Shown piece by piece: positions 6,047 to 17,034 of a stretch of DNA of 64,000 nt. Source of the DNA: Baekduia alba (GTDB taxonomy: Bacteria > Actinomycetota > Thermoleophilia > Solirubrobacterales > Solirubrobacteraceae). Numbering within the stretch: the first letter of the stretch is position 1; each line of letters starts with the position of its first letter. Position numbers and translations under genes: made by a program. Under the pieces are notes generated by a model. That model had not been told where the DNA came from, did not search any database, and saw only the letters and a list, made by a program, of their open reading frames with translations. The DNA is taken from positions 2,108,001-2,172,000 of the forward strand of contig NZ_CP114013.1 in assembly GCF_028416635.1 (NCBI RefSeq), given 5' to 3'.

Positions 6047-6889
6047 TCAGACGCGCCGCAGCTTGTCGGGGTTGCGGATCGCGTCGATGCGCGTGATGCG
6101 GCCGTCGTCGACGACGAACGAGAGCGCCGAGCGATGGCCGTCGCCGCTGGCCAGCACCAGCCCGAGCCGCCCGTTGAGCGTGATCTCGATGGGCTCCTGC
6201 GCGAGCCGGCGGCCGAGCGCCGCCCACGCGCGCCCGACCCGCGCCGCGCCGCTCAGCGGCCTGCGCACGGCGTGCACGCGCCCGCCGCCGTCCGACGTCC
6301 AGACGACGCCCGGGTCGAGCACCGAGACGAGGCCCTCGAGGTCGCCGTCGGCCACCGCCTGCGCGAACGCCCGCACGGCGCGATCGTGCTCGTCGTCGGA
6401 CGCCGCGAAGCGCGGGCCCTCGCGCTTGACGTGCCGGCGGGCGCGCGAGGCGAGCTGCCGCACCGCCTCAGGCGTGCGGCCGACCACCGCGGCGACGTCG
6501 CCGAACGGCACGTCGAACACGTCGTGCAGCACGAACGCCGTGCGCTCCGCGGGCGAGAGCTGCTCGAGCACGGTCAGCAGCGCGTAGCTGACCGACTCGT
6601 CGAGCGTGACGCGGTCCGCCGGGTCCTCCGACACGAGCGGCTCCGGCAGCCACGGCCCGACGTAGGTCTCGCGGCGCGCGCGAGCGGACTGCAGGCGATC
6701 GAGCGCCAGCCGGGCGACGACCGTCGTCAGCCAGCCGTCGAGGTTCTCGATCGCGTCCGCGTCCGCGCGCTCCAGCCGCAGCCACGCGTCCTGCACGACG
6801 TCCTCGGCCTCGCCGACGTCGCCGAGCTCGCTGTAGGCGAGCCGCAGCAGCCGCGGGCGTGCCTGCGCGAAGCGCTCCGCGGCGGTCAC
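6047..6889 (-). CDS. ECF41-type RNA polymerase sigma factor with SnoaL-like extension
   Basis: The 280-residue protein has sigma regions 2 and 4 (EAEDVVQDAWLRLERA near residue 27; TPEAVRQLASRARRHV near 150), then a C-terminal SnoaL-like domain. The three ECF41 landmark motifs are visible: WLPEP in the linker, DGGGR near residue 207 and NPDKL at the C-terminus. In ECF41 proteins the extension modulates sigma activity and no separate anti-sigma factor is needed. GTG 6889 overlaps the epimerase stop (GTGA), so the pair is one transcription unit. The ECF41-type promoter at 7770-7796 predicts autoregulation. Confidence 0.92.
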   Translation of the reverse strand: MTAAERFAQARPRLLRLAYSELGDVGEAEDVVQDAWLRLERADADAIENLDGWLTTVVARLALDRLQSARARRETYVGPWLPEPLVSEDPADRVTLDESVSYALLTVLEQLSPAERTAFVLHDVFDVPFGDVAAVVGRTPEAVRQLASRARRHVKREGPRFAASDDEHDRAVRAFAQAVADGDLEGLVSVLDPGVVWTSDGGGRVHAVRRPLSGAARVGRAWAALGRRLAQEPIEITLNGRLGLVLASGDGHRSALSFVVDDGRITRIDAIRNPDKLRRV

Positions 6890-7761
6890 GCGGCGATCCG
6901 CTCCCAGGTCTCGGTGCCCGCGCGCAGGCGTGGCGCCCAGCCGCTCGCCTCGCGCAACCGGCGGCTCGACACGCGCTGCGAGCGCGCCAGCGGCCCCTCC
7001 ACCGGCGTCCGCAGGCGCAGGGCGTCGACCCCGACGGCGGCGGCCAGCGCGGCATCGATCTCGGCGTTCGTCGGCGGGTCGGCGTCGGTCACGTTGTAGG
7101 TCCCGGCCGGGACGGCCAGCGCCGCGGCGATGGCCGTCGCCGCATCGTCGAGCCAGAGCGTCGGCCGGTAGGCGCCGGGCGGGCCGATCGCGATCGAGGC
7201 ACCGCCGCGCGCGGCCTCCAGCGCGCCCTGCGTGGACCCGCTGTCGGGTCCCATGAACAGCCCGAAGCGCAGCACGACGGTGTCGCCGTCGAACAGCTCG
7301 CGCGCGTTGCGCTCGGCCGTCAGCGCGGTCGTCGTCACGCCGCCGCCGGCGACCGGGGCGTCCTCGTCGAGCCACGCGTCGCCGCCGTCGGCGTAGACGA
7401 AGGCGATCGACTCCTGGACGAGCCGCCGCACGCCGGCGGCCTGGGCGGCGCGCGCGATCGCCGCCGACGCCTCGGTCCGCACGCGGTCGTTCTCCGCCCA
7501 GGCGGACGGATCGGCCATGCGGTCGGCGCGCGGGATGTGCGTCAGCAGGTTGACGACGGCGTCGGCCCCGTCGAACGCGCGGCGCAGCGAGGCCTCGTCG
7601 AAGACGTCGGCCTCGACGGCGCCCGCCCCGAGGTCCTCCAGCCGCTCGCGGCCGCGAGCGGACCGCGTCACGCCCGTGACGCGGTGGCCGGCCGCGACCA
7701 GCTCGCGGACGGCGCGCCGCCCGATGACGCCTGTGGATCCGGTGATCACGATCTCGTTCAT
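6886..7761 (-). CDS. NAD-dependent epimerase/dehydratase-family protein
   Basis: The 291-residue protein opens with the Rossmann nucleotide-binding pattern GSTGVIGR at residues 7-14 and has an extended-SDR layout (VDLLTH-like segment VVNLLTHIP, then LVQESIAFVYADGG with the catalytic-region Tyr). It resembles NAD-dependent sugar epimerases or reductases, but the usual YXXXK is not clear (FVYADGG), so catalysis may be unusual. It is translationally coupled to the ECF41 sigma gene and is the first gene behind the ECF41 promoter, so it is the likely regulated target. The substrate is unknown. Confidence 0.82.
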   Translation of the reverse strand: MNEIVITGSTGVIGRRAVRELVAAGHRVTGVTRSARGRERLEDLGAGAVEADVFDEASLRRAFDGADAVVNLLTHIPRADRMADPSAWAENDRVRTEASAAIARAAQAAGVRRLVQESIAFVYADGGDAWLDEDAPVAGGGVTTTALTAERNARELFDGDTVVLRFGLFMGPDSGSTQGALEAARGGASIAIGPPGAYRPTLWLDDAATAIAAALAVPAGTYNVTDADPPTNAEIDAALAAAVGVDALRLRTPVEGPLARSQRVSSRRLREASGWAPRLRAGTETWERIAA

Positions 7762-7769
7762 GCCGAGCT

Positions 7770-7796
7770 GACGACGTACCCCACTCGATCGTGACA
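7770..7796 (-). promoter_or_regulatory. ECF41-type promoter of the epimerase-sigma operon
   Basis: On the minus strand TGTCACG (7796-7790) is followed by exactly 16 bases and CGTC (7773-7770). This matches the ECF41 promoter pattern TGTCACA-N16-CGTC known from the literature. The ATG lies 8 bases downstream, so the transcript is nearly leaderless. Two further copies occur at 48331 and 49442. Confidence 0.75.
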
Positions 7797-7916
7797 TGCG
7801 CCCGGCGGGCCGGGCGCAGCCCCCGACGACCGGGCGGTTGTCCGGTCGCGATCCGGTTGGCGTGCCAGCGGGCGTGCCATCGTCGGACCAGGGCCTCGCG
7901 ACGGGAGGGAGTCAGC

Positions 7917-9605
7917 ATGTCCATGATGAAGTGGTCCGGTTGGGGTGCGGAGGACGTGACGTTCAGCGCGGCCGACAAGCCGGCGCTCGGGCCGTTCCTG
8001 GAGCAGCACCTCGGGCTGCGGTCGGCGGGCGCCCTGACGGCGTCGGTCGCGTTCGCCGCGCTCGACGTGCCCGAGCCGGCGGCGAGCGACGAGCTGCTGG
8101 ACGCGCTGCGGCGCGTCGCCGGCGCGGAGGCCGTGTCGCTGGAGGCCCGCGATCGCGTCACGCACGCGCGCGGCAAGAGCCTGCGCGACCTCGTGCGCCA
8201 TCGCGCCGGCGAGCTGGGCCGGATCCCCGACGTGGTCGTGCGGCCGAGCGACGAGGACGCGGTCGCCGGCCTGCTGGCGGTCGTGCTCGACGCCGACGCC
8301 GTGGCGATCCCGTTCGGCGGCGGCACCAACATCTCCGGGAGCCTGGAGGTGCCCGCGGGCGAGACGCGGCCCGTCGTCTCGATCGACCTCGGGCGGCTGG
8401 ACCGCGTGCTCGAGATCGACGAGGCGTCGCGCCTGGCGCGCGTCCAGGCGGGCGTCTTCGGACCCGACCTCGAGCGCCAGCTCAACGCGCGCGGCTGGAC
8501 GCTGGGGCACTTCCCCGACAGCTTCACCTACTCGACGCTGGGCGGCTGGATCGCGACGCGCTCCTCGGGCATGCAGTCCGACCGCTTCGGCGACGTCGCC
8601 GAGCTGACGCGCGGGCTGCGCGCCGTCACGCCGACCGGCGTGCTGGCGATCCGGCCCGTCCCCGCGACCTCGACGGGCCCGAGCGTGCGCGAGATGATCC
8701 TCGGCAGCGAGGGCCGGCTGGGCATCATCACCGAGGCGACGGTGCAGGTGCACCGGGTGGCGCAGGAGCGGACGATCCGCGGCTACCTCTTCCCCAGCTG
8801 GCCGGCCGGGTTGGCCGCCATGCGCGACATCGCCGCGAGCGAGGCGTCGCCCTCGGTCACGCGGGTCTCGGACGCGCCCGAGACGGCGTTCTCGTTCGCC
8901 ACCAAGAAGGGCGGCTCGGTCGTCGACCGGCTCAAGTCCCGGGCGCTGCGCGCGTTCCTGGAGCGCCGGCGCGGCTTCGACGTCAGCGCGATGTGCCTGG
9001 CGTTCATCGGCTACGAGGGCAGCGCGCGGCACGTCGCCGCCCAGCGCAAGCTCGTCGGCCGGATCGTCGCCGCGCACGGCGGGGTCGGCATCGGCAGCGG
9101 GCCCGGCGCGCTCTACGACCAGAAGAAGTTCGACACGCCGTACATCCGCGACTACCTCCTGGACCGCGGCGCGCTGGCCGACGTGTCGGAGACCGCGGCG
9201 CCGTGGAGCGCGCTGCCCGAGGTGTATGACAACGTCATGGCCGCGGCGCGCGAGCGCTTCGACGCCCTCGGGGTCAAGGGCTACATCATGAGCCACCTGT
9301 CGCACTCCTACCACGGCGGGGCGTGCCTCTACTTCACCTTCGCCTTCCGCCCGGACCCGGTGCGCGACGGGCTGGCCGACTACGACACCATCAAGTCGGC
9401 GATCCAACAGGCCTTCGTGGACTCCGGCGCCACGCTGTCGCACCACCACGCGGTCGGCACCGAGCACGCGGCCTGGCTGGAGCAGGACATCTCGGCGCCG
9501 GGCGTGGCGATGATCCGCGCGCTGCTGGAAGGCGTCGACCCCGGCGCCAACCTCAACCCGGGCAAGATCGTGGCCGACCGGCAGCCGGCCCCGGTCGAGC
9601 GGTAG
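7917..9605 (+). CDS. FAD-binding oxidoreductase, alkyldihydroxyacetonephosphate-synthase-like
   Basis: The 562-residue protein starts at ATG 7917 behind GGGAGGGAG and begins SMMKWSGWG, close to the MKWWGWG start of alkyl-DHAP synthases. The FAD-linked oxidase domain shows PFGGGTNISGSLEVP near residue 121 and GTLGGWIATRSSG-like STLGGWIATRSSGMQSD near 203. A C-terminal HHHAVGTEHAAWL region near 505 corresponds to the active-site His stretch of that enzyme. Alkyl-DHAP synthase swaps an acyl for an alkyl chain to start ether lipids. The PlsC gene 6 bases downstream supports a lipid role. A glycolate- or lactate-oxidase-like activity remains possible. Confidence 0.75.
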   Translation: MSMMKWSGWGAEDVTFSAADKPALGPFLEQHLGLRSAGALTASVAFAALDVPEPAASDELLDALRRVAGAEAVSLEARDRVTHARGKSLRDLVRHRAGELGRIPDVVVRPSDEDAVAGLLAVVLDADAVAIPFGGGTNISGSLEVPAGETRPVVSIDLGRLDRVLEIDEASRLARVQAGVFGPDLERQLNARGWTLGHFPDSFTYSTLGGWIATRSSGMQSDRFGDVAELTRGLRAVTPTGVLAIRPVPATSTGPSVREMILGSEGRLGIITEATVQVHRVAQERTIRGYLFPSWPAGLAAMRDIAASEASPSVTRVSDAPETAFSFATKKGGSVVDRLKSRALRAFLERRRGFDVSAMCLAFIGYEGSARHVAAQRKLVGRIVAAHGGVGIGSGPGALYDQKKFDTPYIRDYLLDRGALADVSETAAPWSALPEVYDNVMAAARERFDALGVKGYIMSHLSHSYHGGACLYFTFAFRPDPVRDGLADYDTIKSAIQQAFVDSGATLSHHHAVGTEHAAWLEQDISAPGVAMIRALLEGVDPGANLNPGKIVADRQPAPVER

Positions 9606-9611
9606 CCGGCG

Positions 9612-10388
9612 ATGCGCGACACCGCATGGGCGAGGCGGCTCTGGGCGCGCGCCGTGCGCGAGACGTTCCTGATGGCCATCCTCGGCCCGACGATGGACCT
9701 CTACACGCGCCGGCGCATCCGTGGGCGGGAGGCGCTGGCCGGCGTCGAGGGGCCGGTCATCCTGGTGGCCAACCACGGCAGCCACATGGACACGCCGGAG
9801 ATCCTGCGGTCGCTGCCGTGGCGCCTGCGCCGGCGCACCGCCGTCGCGGCCGCCGCCGACTACTTCTATCGCAGCCGGCGCCGCGCGATCGCCGTGTCGC
9901 TGGCGTTCAACACGGTCCCGATGCGCCGCCACGGCGGCGGGCTGCAGGCGCGGTCGACGCAGCACGTCGACGCGCTGATCGACGACCGCTGGAGTCTGCT
10001 GATCTTCCCCGAGGGCACACGGTCGCGCGACGGGCGGATCGGCGTCCTGCGCTCCGGCGCGGCGGTCCTGGCCGCGGCGCACGACCTCGCGATCGTCCCG
10101 GTGCACATCGCCGGGACGCGGGCGGCGATGCCGGTCGGCCAGAGCTGGCCCAAGCGCCGGCCCGGCCGCTGGCCGCGGCGCCGCCACGTGGTCGAGATCC
10201 GCTTCGGCACGCCGATCCAACTGACCCCGGCCGAAGACCGGCACGCGGTCATGGAGCGCGTCCGCGCCTTCTACGAGCGCTGCGGCGCGCCCACGACGCC
10301 GCCCGAGCCCGGCCGCTTCCGCGCCGCCGCGACCGATCCGCCGCGGGAGCCCGCGGCGAAGGAGGCCGCGGCGGGGCGGAGGTCCTGA
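9612..10388 (+). CDS. 1-acyl-sn-glycerol-3-phosphate acyltransferase (PlsC family)
   Basis: The 258-residue protein has the acyltransferase motifs NHGSHMDTPEI (NHX4D) near residue 51 and FPEGTRSRDG near 132, followed by PVHIAGT, as in PlsC/LPLAT enzymes. It would acylate a glycerophospholipid precursor at the membrane; a hydrophobic helix near MAILGPTMDLY may anchor it. It starts 6 bases after the alkyl-DHAP-synthase-like gene, so the two are almost certainly co-transcribed. Together they suggest a modified or ether-type glycerolipid route. The basic, Ala-rich C-terminus after residue 230 looks disordered. Confidence 0.88.
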   Translation: MRDTAWARRLWARAVRETFLMAILGPTMDLYTRRRIRGREALAGVEGPVILVANHGSHMDTPEILRSLPWRLRRRTAVAAAADYFYRSRRRAIAVSLAFNTVPMRRHGGGLQARSTQHVDALIDDRWSLLIFPEGTRSRDGRIGVLRSGAAVLAAAHDLAIVPVHIAGTRAAMPVGQSWPKRRPGRWPRRRHVVEIRFGTPIQLTPAEDRHAVMERVRAFYERCGAPTTPPEPGRFRAAATDPPREPAAKEAAAGRRS

Positions 10389-14979: not shown

Positions 14980-17034
14980 ATGTCGACCGCGACAGCCACC
15001 CCGATGACGTTCGCCGGCGAGGGCCTGTACCCCAGGCTCTTCTCGCCGTGGGCGCTCCGCAACCAGGAGGTCAAGAACCACATCATCTTCCCGCCCACCT
15101 GTCCCACGTGGACCGACCAGGGCGTGCTGACCGACATGGCCACCGCCTACTACGAGGAGCGGGCCAAGCACGAGGTCGGGCTGATCATCATCGGCGCCAC
15201 GCACGTCCATCGCGACTCCTTGGCGGCGCCGCTGATGACGCCCCAGCTGTTCAACGACGACAACGTCGAGCCGCTGCGGGCGATCGCCGACGCCGTGCAC
15301 GCCCACGGGACCAAGCTCGCCATCCAGCTCTGGCACTCCGGCATGCGGGGCTTCCCGTTCCCCAAGCAGGATCCCGGCTACGACCTGGACGCGAGCTGGC
15401 ACACCGTGTCGCCGAGCGCGATCCCGCTCGGCGAGTTCCCGGGCGGAGGGACGCCGAAGGAGCTCACCGACGGTGAGATCCTCGACGTCATCGACGCCTT
15501 CGGAACGGCCGCGGAGCGCGCCGCGCGGGCCGGCCTCGACGGGGTCGAGTTCCACCTCAGCCACGGCTACCTGGCCTGGCAGTTCCTCTCGCCGCTCTAC
15601 AACCACCGCACCGACCGGTGGGGCGGCTCGTACGAGAACCGGCTGCGCTTCCCGATCGCCTGCATGGAGAAGATCCGCGAGGCGGTCGGCCCGGAGATGT
15701 TCATGGGCTACCGGATCAACTCGACGTCGTTCTGGCCCGGCGACCTGGAGATCGACGACATCAAGCAGATCGTCGGCGACCTCGAGCAGCGCGTCGACGT
15801 CGACTACGTGAGCGTGTCGGCGGGCGTCCACCACGCCTTCATCCACACGCCGATGGAGTTCGAGGCCGGTTGGGAGAAGGGCTACGCGCGGGCGGTGAAG
15901 GACGTGTCGACCAAGCCCGTCTTCCTCGTCGGCCGGATCACGACGCCCGAGGACGCCGAGCGGCTCCTCGAGGAGGAGCAGGGCGACGCGATCTGCCTGG
16001 CGCGCCAGATGTTCGCGGACCCGGAATGGGGCCGGAAGGCGCGCGAAGGCCGCTCGGAGGACATCCGCCGCTGCGTCGCCGCCAACCTGTGCTGGCGCAA
16101 GGCGAGCACCGGGCAGCGCGTGCAGTGCGTGTACAACCCGACGATGGGCCGCGAGAGCCGCTGGGGCGCCGGGACGTTGACGCCGGTGGCCGAGCCGCGC
16201 AACGTCGTCGTCGTCGGCGGCGGCCCGAGCGGGCTGGAGTGCGCGCGAGTGGCGGCGGCCCGTGGGCACAACGTCACCGTCCTCGAGCGCGAGGCCGACC
16301 CGGGCGGGCACGTGCGCCTGCAGTCGCTGCTGCCCAGCCGCAGCGAGTACGGGCGCATCGGGACCTGGTTGGCCGAGCAGGCCGTCAAGAACGGGGCGAC
16401 GATCCGCACCGGCACCGACGTGACCGAGGACAACATCGCCGGGCTGCTGGACGAGCTCCGCGCCGACAAGGTCGTCGTCGCGACCGGGGCGAGCATCGCC
16501 GTCGACGGCTTCCAGGGCTGGACCGCCGAGGCGCTGCCCGGGCACGACACCGCCAGCCTCGTCGGCTGGGACGACGTCGTCACCGGCCGCGCGACGCCGA
16601 CCGGCGACGTGCTGGTCGTCGACGACGTCTGCGACGTCGTCGCGCCGCTGACCGCGGTCGCGCTGGCCAACGCGGGCGCTCGGGTCAAGATCGTCACGCG
16701 CTGGCCCATGATCGGCATGGACACGATCCTCGACGTCTACCTCGAGTGGATCCTGCCCCAGGTCTACCGCGCGGGGGTGGAGATGGTCTGCGACCGGTTC
16801 GTCAAGGAGATCCGCGGCAAGGAGACCGTGCTGCAGAACGTGCACGCCCCGGACGACGAGCTCGTCCTGCCCTCCGATCACCTCGTCATGGTCACCGCCC
16901 GCCGCGCCGAGCACGCGCTGGCCGACCTGCTGGCCGAGCAGGGCGTGGACGTCGCGACGATCGGCTGCGCGGTGGCGCCCAGAGGAACCTACGAGGCCGT
17001 GTTCGAGGGCCACCGCGAAGGGCGGCGGATCTGA
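14980..17034 (+). CDS. Old-Yellow-Enzyme / trimethylamine-dehydrogenase-family FMN-FAD oxidoreductase
   Basis: The 684-residue protein has an N-terminal FMN TIM barrel (GVEFHLSHGYLAWQFLSPLY, NHRTDRWGGSYENRLRF) and a C-terminal nucleotide-binding part opening with VVVVGGGPSGLECARVAA near residue 408. Members of this family (dienoyl-CoA reductase FadH, trimethylamine dehydrogenase) carry a [4Fe-4S] cluster on four cysteines between the domains. Here the region near residue 364 reads RRCVAANLCWRK and later VQCVYNP, so only three cysteines are seen and the usual CXXC is CXXA. An AAGGAGGAG site precedes ATG 14980. The enzyme probably reduces or demethylates the imported compound. Confidence 0.85.
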   Translation: MSTATATPMTFAGEGLYPRLFSPWALRNQEVKNHIIFPPTCPTWTDQGVLTDMATAYYEERAKHEVGLIIIGATHVHRDSLAAPLMTPQLFNDDNVEPLRAIADAVHAHGTKLAIQLWHSGMRGFPFPKQDPGYDLDASWHTVSPSAIPLGEFPGGGTPKELTDGEILDVIDAFGTAAERAARAGLDGVEFHLSHGYLAWQFLSPLYNHRTDRWGGSYENRLRFPIACMEKIREAVGPEMFMGYRINSTSFWPGDLEIDDIKQIVGDLEQRVDVDYVSVSAGVHHAFIHTPMEFEAGWEKGYARAVKDVSTKPVFLVGRITTPEDAERLLEEEQGDAICLARQMFADPEWGRKAREGRSEDIRRCVAANLCWRKASTGQRVQCVYNPTMGRESRWGAGTLTPVAEPRNVVVVGGGPSGLECARVAAARGHNVTVLEREADPGGHVRLQSLLPSRSEYGRIGTWLAEQAVKNGATIRTGTDVTEDNIAGLLDELRADKVVVATGASIAVDGFQGWTAEALPGHDTASLVGWDDVVTGRATPTGDVLVVDDVCDVVAPLTAVALANAGARVKIVTRWPMIGMDTILDVYLEWILPQVYRAGVEMVCDRFVKEIRGKETVLQNVHAPDDELVLPSDHLVMVTARRAEHALADLLAEQGVDVATIGCAVAPRGTYEAVFEGHREGRRI

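Follow-up and report, generated by a model that had tools for sequence, protein, structure and literature searches.

Alkylglycerone-phosphate synthase (AGPS) replaces the acyl chain of acyl-dihydroxyacetone phosphate (acyl-DHAP) by a fatty alcohol, and a mechanism via a flavin adduct has been proposed for this exchange (PMC3509576). Homologues of AGPS are described from many bacterial phyla, Actinobacteria included, in Black Sea metagenomes (PMC11868695), and in aerobic bacteria gene assignments for ether lipids are still poor. Here, we describe a gene pair in a 64,000-nucleotide stretch of Baekduia alba (Thermoleophilia), hereafter the window, which spans bases 2108001-2172000 of a genome assembled as one 5.86-Mb contig (NZ_CP114013.1). 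The pair consists of a flavoprotein gene of AGPS type and a PlsC-type acyltransferase gene. Judged from sequence and gene context, it likely encodes the central enzymes of a pathway that makes alkyl (1-O-alkyl) ether glycerolipids by the AGPS route, and the bacteria in which it recurs, often near enzymes that are likely to make fatty alcohols, probably produce animal-like ether lipids.

One closely similar system, compared here like the other known bacterial routes by its published description, is the MXAN_1676-1674 operon of Myxococcus xanthus, in which an AGPS homologue adjoins an acyltransferase-bearing gene, as in the window (PMC9131029). The third member of that operon is an NAD-epimerase-type gene, as is found in seven relatives of the window pair. 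In M. xanthus, however, the acyltransferase is described as fused to a FAR1-like domain (PMC9131029), whereas that of the window stands alone, and neither FAR nor epimerase is part of the window cluster. AGPS homologues in bacteria, and AGPS beside an acyltransferase, are already known; the useful part of the present analysis is the conserved context of the pair.

The flavoprotein is a member of the AGPS family

The first-pass annotation of the window had proposed an AGPS-like flavoprotein followed after 6 bases by a PlsC acyltransferase, and the coordinates (Table 1), Pfam and phmmer agree with it. The flavoprotein matches FAD_binding_4 (108 bits) and FAD-oxidase_C (115 bits), and phmmer scores it at 384.8 bits against Dictyostelium ADPS (2uuu) and 311.9 against guinea-pig AGPS (4bby), with glycolate oxidase, the next family, at 79.1. 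Its nearest named relatives are Thermoleophilaceae and Solirubrobacterales metagenome-assembled genomes (MAGs). A fold search with its AlphaFold model (mean pLDDT 87.4) returned AGPS/ADPS chains in all of the top 37 PDB rows (best E 6e-52, TM 0.84-0.89 by target length), followed by lactate dehydrogenase (E 3.8e-29), which is more than 15 orders of magnitude weaker.

The active site is conserved as well. R419, R515, Y578 and H615-617 of guinea-pig AGPS are identical in the window flavoprotein, and the catalytic positions are invariant in an alignment with 25 relatives from several phyla (26 sequences). R515 and the HHH stretch count, like R419 and Y578, among the catalytic residues of AGPS. 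Altogether, 14 of 20 guinea-pig positions compared with the flavoprotein are identical and six differ (469, 526, 527, 547, 548 and 568), with 469 and 527 matching Dictyostelium instead. Dictyostelium R352, R447 and Y508 would correspond to R316, R411 and Y472 of the window protein, provided that the published numbering equals the chain index plus 3 (PMC3509576). Two sequence marks had been singled out by the first-pass annotation. The MK-W-GWG start held up, as K5, W6, G8, W9 and G10 are invariant in the 26 sequences; the HHH is indeed conserved at residues 509-511, but it is not diagnostic, because three AGPS-like paralogues of the same genome carry it too. HHH marks a wider group rather than AGPS itself, and was rejected as proof of AGPS identity.

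The tree separates the two. A 35-row tree built with a site-mixture model unites both eukaryotic AGPS with the window clade and that clade's relatives from other phyla (99/98) and leaves the paralogues outside; a quick 71-row tree gave the same grouping (SH-aLRT 98). The branch of guinea-pig AGPS is long and the exact position of the eukaryotic enzymes is unsure; they fall beside or within the bacterial clade, and the eukaryotic AGPS may therefore derive from it.

A rival reading is that the flavoprotein is an oxidase from the AGPS superfamily that acts on hydroxy acids or other small molecules, and that the acyltransferase is an unrelated neighbour. In its favour, the fold is shared across the superfamily, and every model listed by NCBIfam is of a GlcD-type or other oxidase or dehydrogenase family, though none comes near its cut-off. 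The HxGDGN metal motif and EHG are marks of the metal-dependent D-2-hydroxy-acid dehydrogenases (GlcD, LDHD, D2HGDH). In a motif search both were absent from the window flavoprotein, which has the AGPS residues, while GHAGDGN was found in two other PF02913 proteins of the genome (L001 and L002), with EHG in L002 only. The tree also places the flavoprotein with AGPS, and the pairing with an acyltransferase and the fatty-alcohol reductases recur at many loci but not around the paralogues. On motifs, tree and fold, a hydroxy-acid oxidase was rejected, and an oxidase of any kind appears very improbable. Whole-length sequence, tree, residues and predicted fold together assign the flavoprotein to the AGPS family.

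The window's genome has six PF02913 matches, three of which, besides the window protein, match it at E <=1e-40. L062, L063 and L064 of this genome, together with L069-L074, are AGPS-like flavoproteins with HHH outside the AGPS clade, with PQS for PDS where the motif was found; a neighbour-profile scan revealed no acyltransferase or reductase next to them. A third AGPS-like group from other actinobacterial families (L173-L176, L185, L186), some with HFPESF, adjoins the AGPS clade in the tree (94/88) and has no acyltransferase neighbours. Across 20 paralogue loci, all actinobacterial, the profiles used for the pair found no acyltransferase, FAR-HAD, FcrA or epimerase gene, and an SDR gene in two. 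For second-tier AGPS-like genes of the phylum (54 genomes, with the best 53 candidates scored in some genomes and some genes near contig ends), the nearest acyltransferase-profile match on the same contig lies about 16.7 kb away.

The pair and its company in other bacteria

The context was examined in 86 loci (the best 80 of 559 relatives in named genomes, the window and five orthologue loci), which were searched with profiles of recurrent neighbours. An acyltransferase gene adjoins AGPS in 73 of them, upstream and co-directional in 62, downstream in nine and divergent in two; five of the 13 others have a truncated flank and eight do not. An SDR gene adjoins the pair, or AGPS alone, in 54/86 loci; in actinomycetes it precedes the acyltransferase, and in Verrucomicrobia and their kin it follows AGPS. 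In seven relatives (L057, L058, L060, L076, L077, L078 and the Actinomycetes MAG L081) an NAD-epimerase-type gene directly follows the acyltransferase, the other six being 59-79% identical to that of L058. The L058 genome (G198) also has a FAR-type gene (PF07993, 180 bits), divergent and about 80 bases upstream of AGPS.

Two kinds of reductase accompany this core. By profile, a FAR-HAD protein is present within 6.5 kb in 25/86 loci, and an HMG-CoA-reductase homologue of the FcrA type in 14/86, with PF00368 in both proteins scanned. They never occur together, and one or the other is found in 39/86 loci, or in 35 of the 61 with at least 5.2 kb of upstream sequence. FcrA is an HMG-CoA-reductase-like fatty acyl-CoA reductase that has been shown to act in wax ester formation and for which a role in ether lipids was suggested (PMC11948995). 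The strongest evidence in this analysis that the core would use fatty alcohol is the presence near it, at different loci, of two unrelated reductases that are both likely to form fatty alcohol.

At L099 (1799-4318) and 24 other actinomycete loci, the protein near the pair combines a FAR-type reductase with a HAD phosphatase domain; the one member scanned, that of L099, matches PF07993 (159.6 bits), HAD (102.8) and Sterile (30.5, under the cut-off of 35.4). The FcrA-like gene stands directly upstream of acyltransferase-AGPS in 13 of its 14 loci (L135, L136, L138-L140, L142-L146, L148, L150 and L154), which are contigs of Verrucomicrobia, Planctomycetota, Ignavibacteria and Calditrichota and one unclassified contig; SDR follows AGPS in 12 of these.

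The pair within Thermoleophilia

A survey of 199 genomes of the class found close AGPS orthologues (68-73% identity) in six, including that of the window, from six genera and two families. The matching acyltransferase is present in eight genomes, all six AGPS genomes among them, and adjoins AGPS in 6/6 (in four of them it follows AGPS on the same strand, and in two the genes are divergent). Fisher's test of their co-occurrence gave 3.5e-10, with the kinship of the genomes ignored. Four of six named contigs from the class or order (L075-L079 and L116) contain the pair. In two stretches, L182 and L183 (G337 and G317), an acyltransferase of the paired type lies near an epimerase-type gene with no window-type AGPS in the stretch, and the two may work without AGPS.

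The role of the acyltransferase

The partner protein is a clear PF01553 member (61.2 bits vs a gathering cut-off of 23) with the HX4D and EGTR motifs, the latter being QGTR in two close relatives. Its position after the flavoprotein gene had been called the natural order for an alkyl-acyl lipid, which implies that AGPS forms the ether bond and the partner acylates the sn-2 position of alkyl-glycerol-3-phosphate, as an alkyl-lysophosphatidic acid (alkyl-LPA) acyltransferase. The closest solved relative by sequence and fold is in keeping with this, being the Thermotoga LPA acyltransferase PlsC (5kym is the best fold match of the model), as is motif I, N-H-x-S-H-x-D, which we take to be of the PlsC kind. 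With seven PF01553 matches in the genome, however, a dedicated sn-2 enzyme would seem unneeded, whereas the supply of acyl-DHAP would be a special need. In addition, the acyltransferase domain beside AGPS in M. xanthus is called GNPAT-like (PMC9131029).

These considerations make sn-2 acylation a credible alternative that we rate somewhat below an even chance. Judged likelier, at roughly even odds, is that the partner supplies acyl-DHAP, as GNPAT does for animals, because the PlsX/PlsY route that bacteria normally use yields acyl-glycerol-3-phosphate and not acyl-DHAP. The pair provides a testable candidate for bacterial acyl-DHAP synthesis.

Sources of fatty alcohol in the genome

The first-pass annotation had proposed looking for a fatty-alcohol-forming reductase elsewhere in the genome, and three candidates emerged, two of FAR type and one of FcrA type. 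A FAR-type gene is located at C1:5045478-5046491. FAR-type homologues are present in all six AGPS genomes vs 24 of the 199 overall. In the FcrA-type protein, the catalytic E, K, D and H of HMG-CoA reductase are kept, with E at S684 and W at L862. The same signature (E, K, D and H kept, Glu at serine 684 and Phe or Trp at leucine 862, human numbering) holds in 14/14 aligned sequences, comprising this protein and 13 from the loci, with the truncated L138 protein left out. A lysine tried for the third residue of the FcrA paper, the position of which is uncertain, is kept in 7/14. FcrA as a dedicated supplier in the class was not supported, as the window's genome is the only one of the six AGPS genomes with a PF00368 match. 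CarF/PEDS1 (PF10520), expected for vinyl ethers, gave no match in the window's genome, but the control genomes gave none either, which makes this absence weak.

Proposed pathway and product

From the genes, their homology and the conservation of the pair and its company, we infer the following reactions, order and product. The partner acyltransferase would produce acyl-DHAP or, alternatively, would act at sn-2 of alkyl-glycerol-3-phosphate. The flavoprotein would then form the ether bond from acyl-DHAP and fatty alcohol, yielding alkyl-DHAP, as its orthology and active site suggest. The fatty alcohol might come from the FAR-type or FcrA-type reductases encoded elsewhere in the genome, and alkyl-DHAP could be reduced by a dehydrogenase that is likewise encoded elsewhere; the relatives often have an SDR or NAD-epimerase-type gene in the cluster. 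Sequence homology, phylogeny, predicted fold, catalytic residues and the conserved neighbourhood all support the ether-lipid reading of the pair.

Several observations weigh against it. Disruption of the AGPS homologue of M. xanthus is described as causing minor ether-lipid loss only (PMC9131029), and ether lipids were reported as undetected in one genus with homologues of ElbD, a protein of another bacterial ether-lipid route (PMC11868695). The partner scores 46.6 bits on TIGR00530 (1-acyl-glycerol-3-phosphate acyltransferase), under the cut-off of 102.95, and its sequence features do not separate DHAP from sn-2 specificity. Among the loci whose flanks are both 1 kb or longer, eight are without an acyltransferase, including L075 and L079 of the class, which have at least 4.6 kb on each side, and two genomes of the class carry the acyltransferase without a window-type AGPS. 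Neither reductase was found in 26/61 loci with at least 5.2 kb upstream, and the window's own cluster is without the SDR, epimerase or reductase of its relatives' clusters; the best match to the L058-type epimerase elsewhere in this genome is 33% identical. Finally, the genome contains four WS/DGAT (wax-ester synthase) matches, so fatty alcohol may also feed wax esters.

The pair might also be active and yet produce a minor or storage ether lipid, made under some conditions only, rather than a bulk membrane lipid. An ether triacylglycerol, TG-1, is known from M. xanthus (PMC9131029), and could serve as an example of such a product. The pair is rare and scattered in the class (6/199 genomes), and the WS/DGAT matches would suit storage lipids, but none of the four lies inside the window. 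TG-1 reportedly belongs to development. Overall, a storage or minor product is considered rather unlikely.

Returning to the AGPS route, a wider generalization can be put forward tentatively, at slightly less than even chances. The pair may represent a widespread bacterial cassette with a fixed core of a small PlsC-type DHAP acyltransferase and AGPS, that is, an acyl-DHAP route paralleling the peroxisomal GNPAT-AGPS route, and with interchangeable fatty-alcohol suppliers (FAR-HAD in actinomycetes; HMG-CoA-reductase-derived FcrA in Verrucomicrobia, Planctomycetes, Ignavibacteria and Calditrichota), from whose clade the eukaryotic AGPS may derive. As a gene marker, the core together with a recurrent reductase would be sharper than similarity to AGPS alone, because HHH-bearing AGPS-like paralogues are common and, where examined, are without such company.

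Coordinates and neighbouring genes

Table 1. Features of the gene pair and related candidate genes of the same genome (window positions, unless a contig position is given)
Feature	Position	Strand	Basis or remark
AGPS-type FAD enzyme (alkylglycerone-phosphate synthase homologue), 562 aa	7917..9605	+	ATG at 7917, stop ends at 9605
R316 codon (corresponds to guinea-pig AGPS R419; mutant R419H solved, 4bc7)	8862..8864	+	Alignment map, invariant in 26 aligned sequences, entry title
Y472 codon (corresponds to guinea-pig AGPS Y578; mutant Y578F solved, 4bca)	9330..9332	+	Alignment map, invariant in 26 aligned sequences, entry title
HHH, residues 509-511, equivalent of guinea-pig H615-617	9441..9449	+	Alignment map, invariant in 26 aligned sequences, 86/86 clade sequences
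Intergenic gap, 6 bases	9606..9611	+	DNA letters
PlsC-type acyltransferase, 258 aa, motifs N54-H55..D60 and PEGTR	9612..10388	+	ATG at 9612, stop ends at 10388
HMG-CoA-reductase homologue, candidate fatty acyl-CoA reductase	G000:C1:2777413-2778516 (L165:8360-9529), outside the window		Preceded by two TetR-type regulator genes
SDR	C1:874816-875598		Scores 161.8 bits with the SDR profile of the clusters; divergent from one FAR-type gene

The flanking GntR, ABC transporter and old-yellow-enzyme (OYE) genes were rejected as pathway members, as they are not kept with the pair in relatives; a few loci do have ABC-ATPase matches (28-36%), which were taken as generic. Membership of the divergent epimerase next door, P0003 (6886-7797, minus), was not supported, with 40.9 bits on the cluster-epimerase profile and 12.7 on the SDR profile; its only match outside the window at E 1e-6 (86 loci) is a partial one, 29%, to a cluster epimerase. 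The gene at 6047-6889 (minus) overlaps this epimerase gene and encodes a sigma-70-type factor that carries a SnoaL-like domain at its C-terminus; the two (6047-7797) look like an ECF sigma factor and the partner that commonly accompanies it. An OYE-type protein is encoded at 14980-17034, after a sugar-type ABC transporter, with mycofactocin OYE_2 as its best match (471.8 bits, cut-off 793).

Comparison with known ether-lipid systems

The first-pass annotation had stated that ether lipids have been discussed for some Thermoleophilia, but no paper on them for Thermoleophilia or Solirubrobacter was found in the open-licence literature. Nor did titles and abstract starts in that literature reveal an account of the acyltransferase-AGPS core as a conserved unit accompanied by FAR-HAD or FcrA.

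For FcrA, the published Glu and aromatic signature residues are common to the homologues in the window's genome and at the AGPS loci; in one genome of that study AGPS is nine genes away (PMC11948995), whereas here the gene is directly upstream of acyltransferase-AGPS in 13/14 loci, but far from the pair in the window's genome. Among bacterial systems, the myxobacterial elb cluster with ElbD is likewise an aerobic route to alkyl ethers with acyltransferase and FAR-like domains, but, as described, it differs from the window pair in using a multidomain ElbD and no AGPS (PMC9131029). The reductive PlsA/Ger route also leads to ether or vinyl-ether lipids, but acts on diacyl lipids (PMC9702350, PMC11868695). 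The mammalian and Dictyostelium AGPS/ADPS enzymes (EC 2.5.1.26; 4bby, 2uuu) share with the window enzyme the sequence, predicted fold, R419/R515/Y578/H615-617 and tree group. Unlike them, the window enzyme is bacterial, with no peroxisome, and its gene adjoins that of a small PlsC-type acyltransferase and not a large GNPAT partner.

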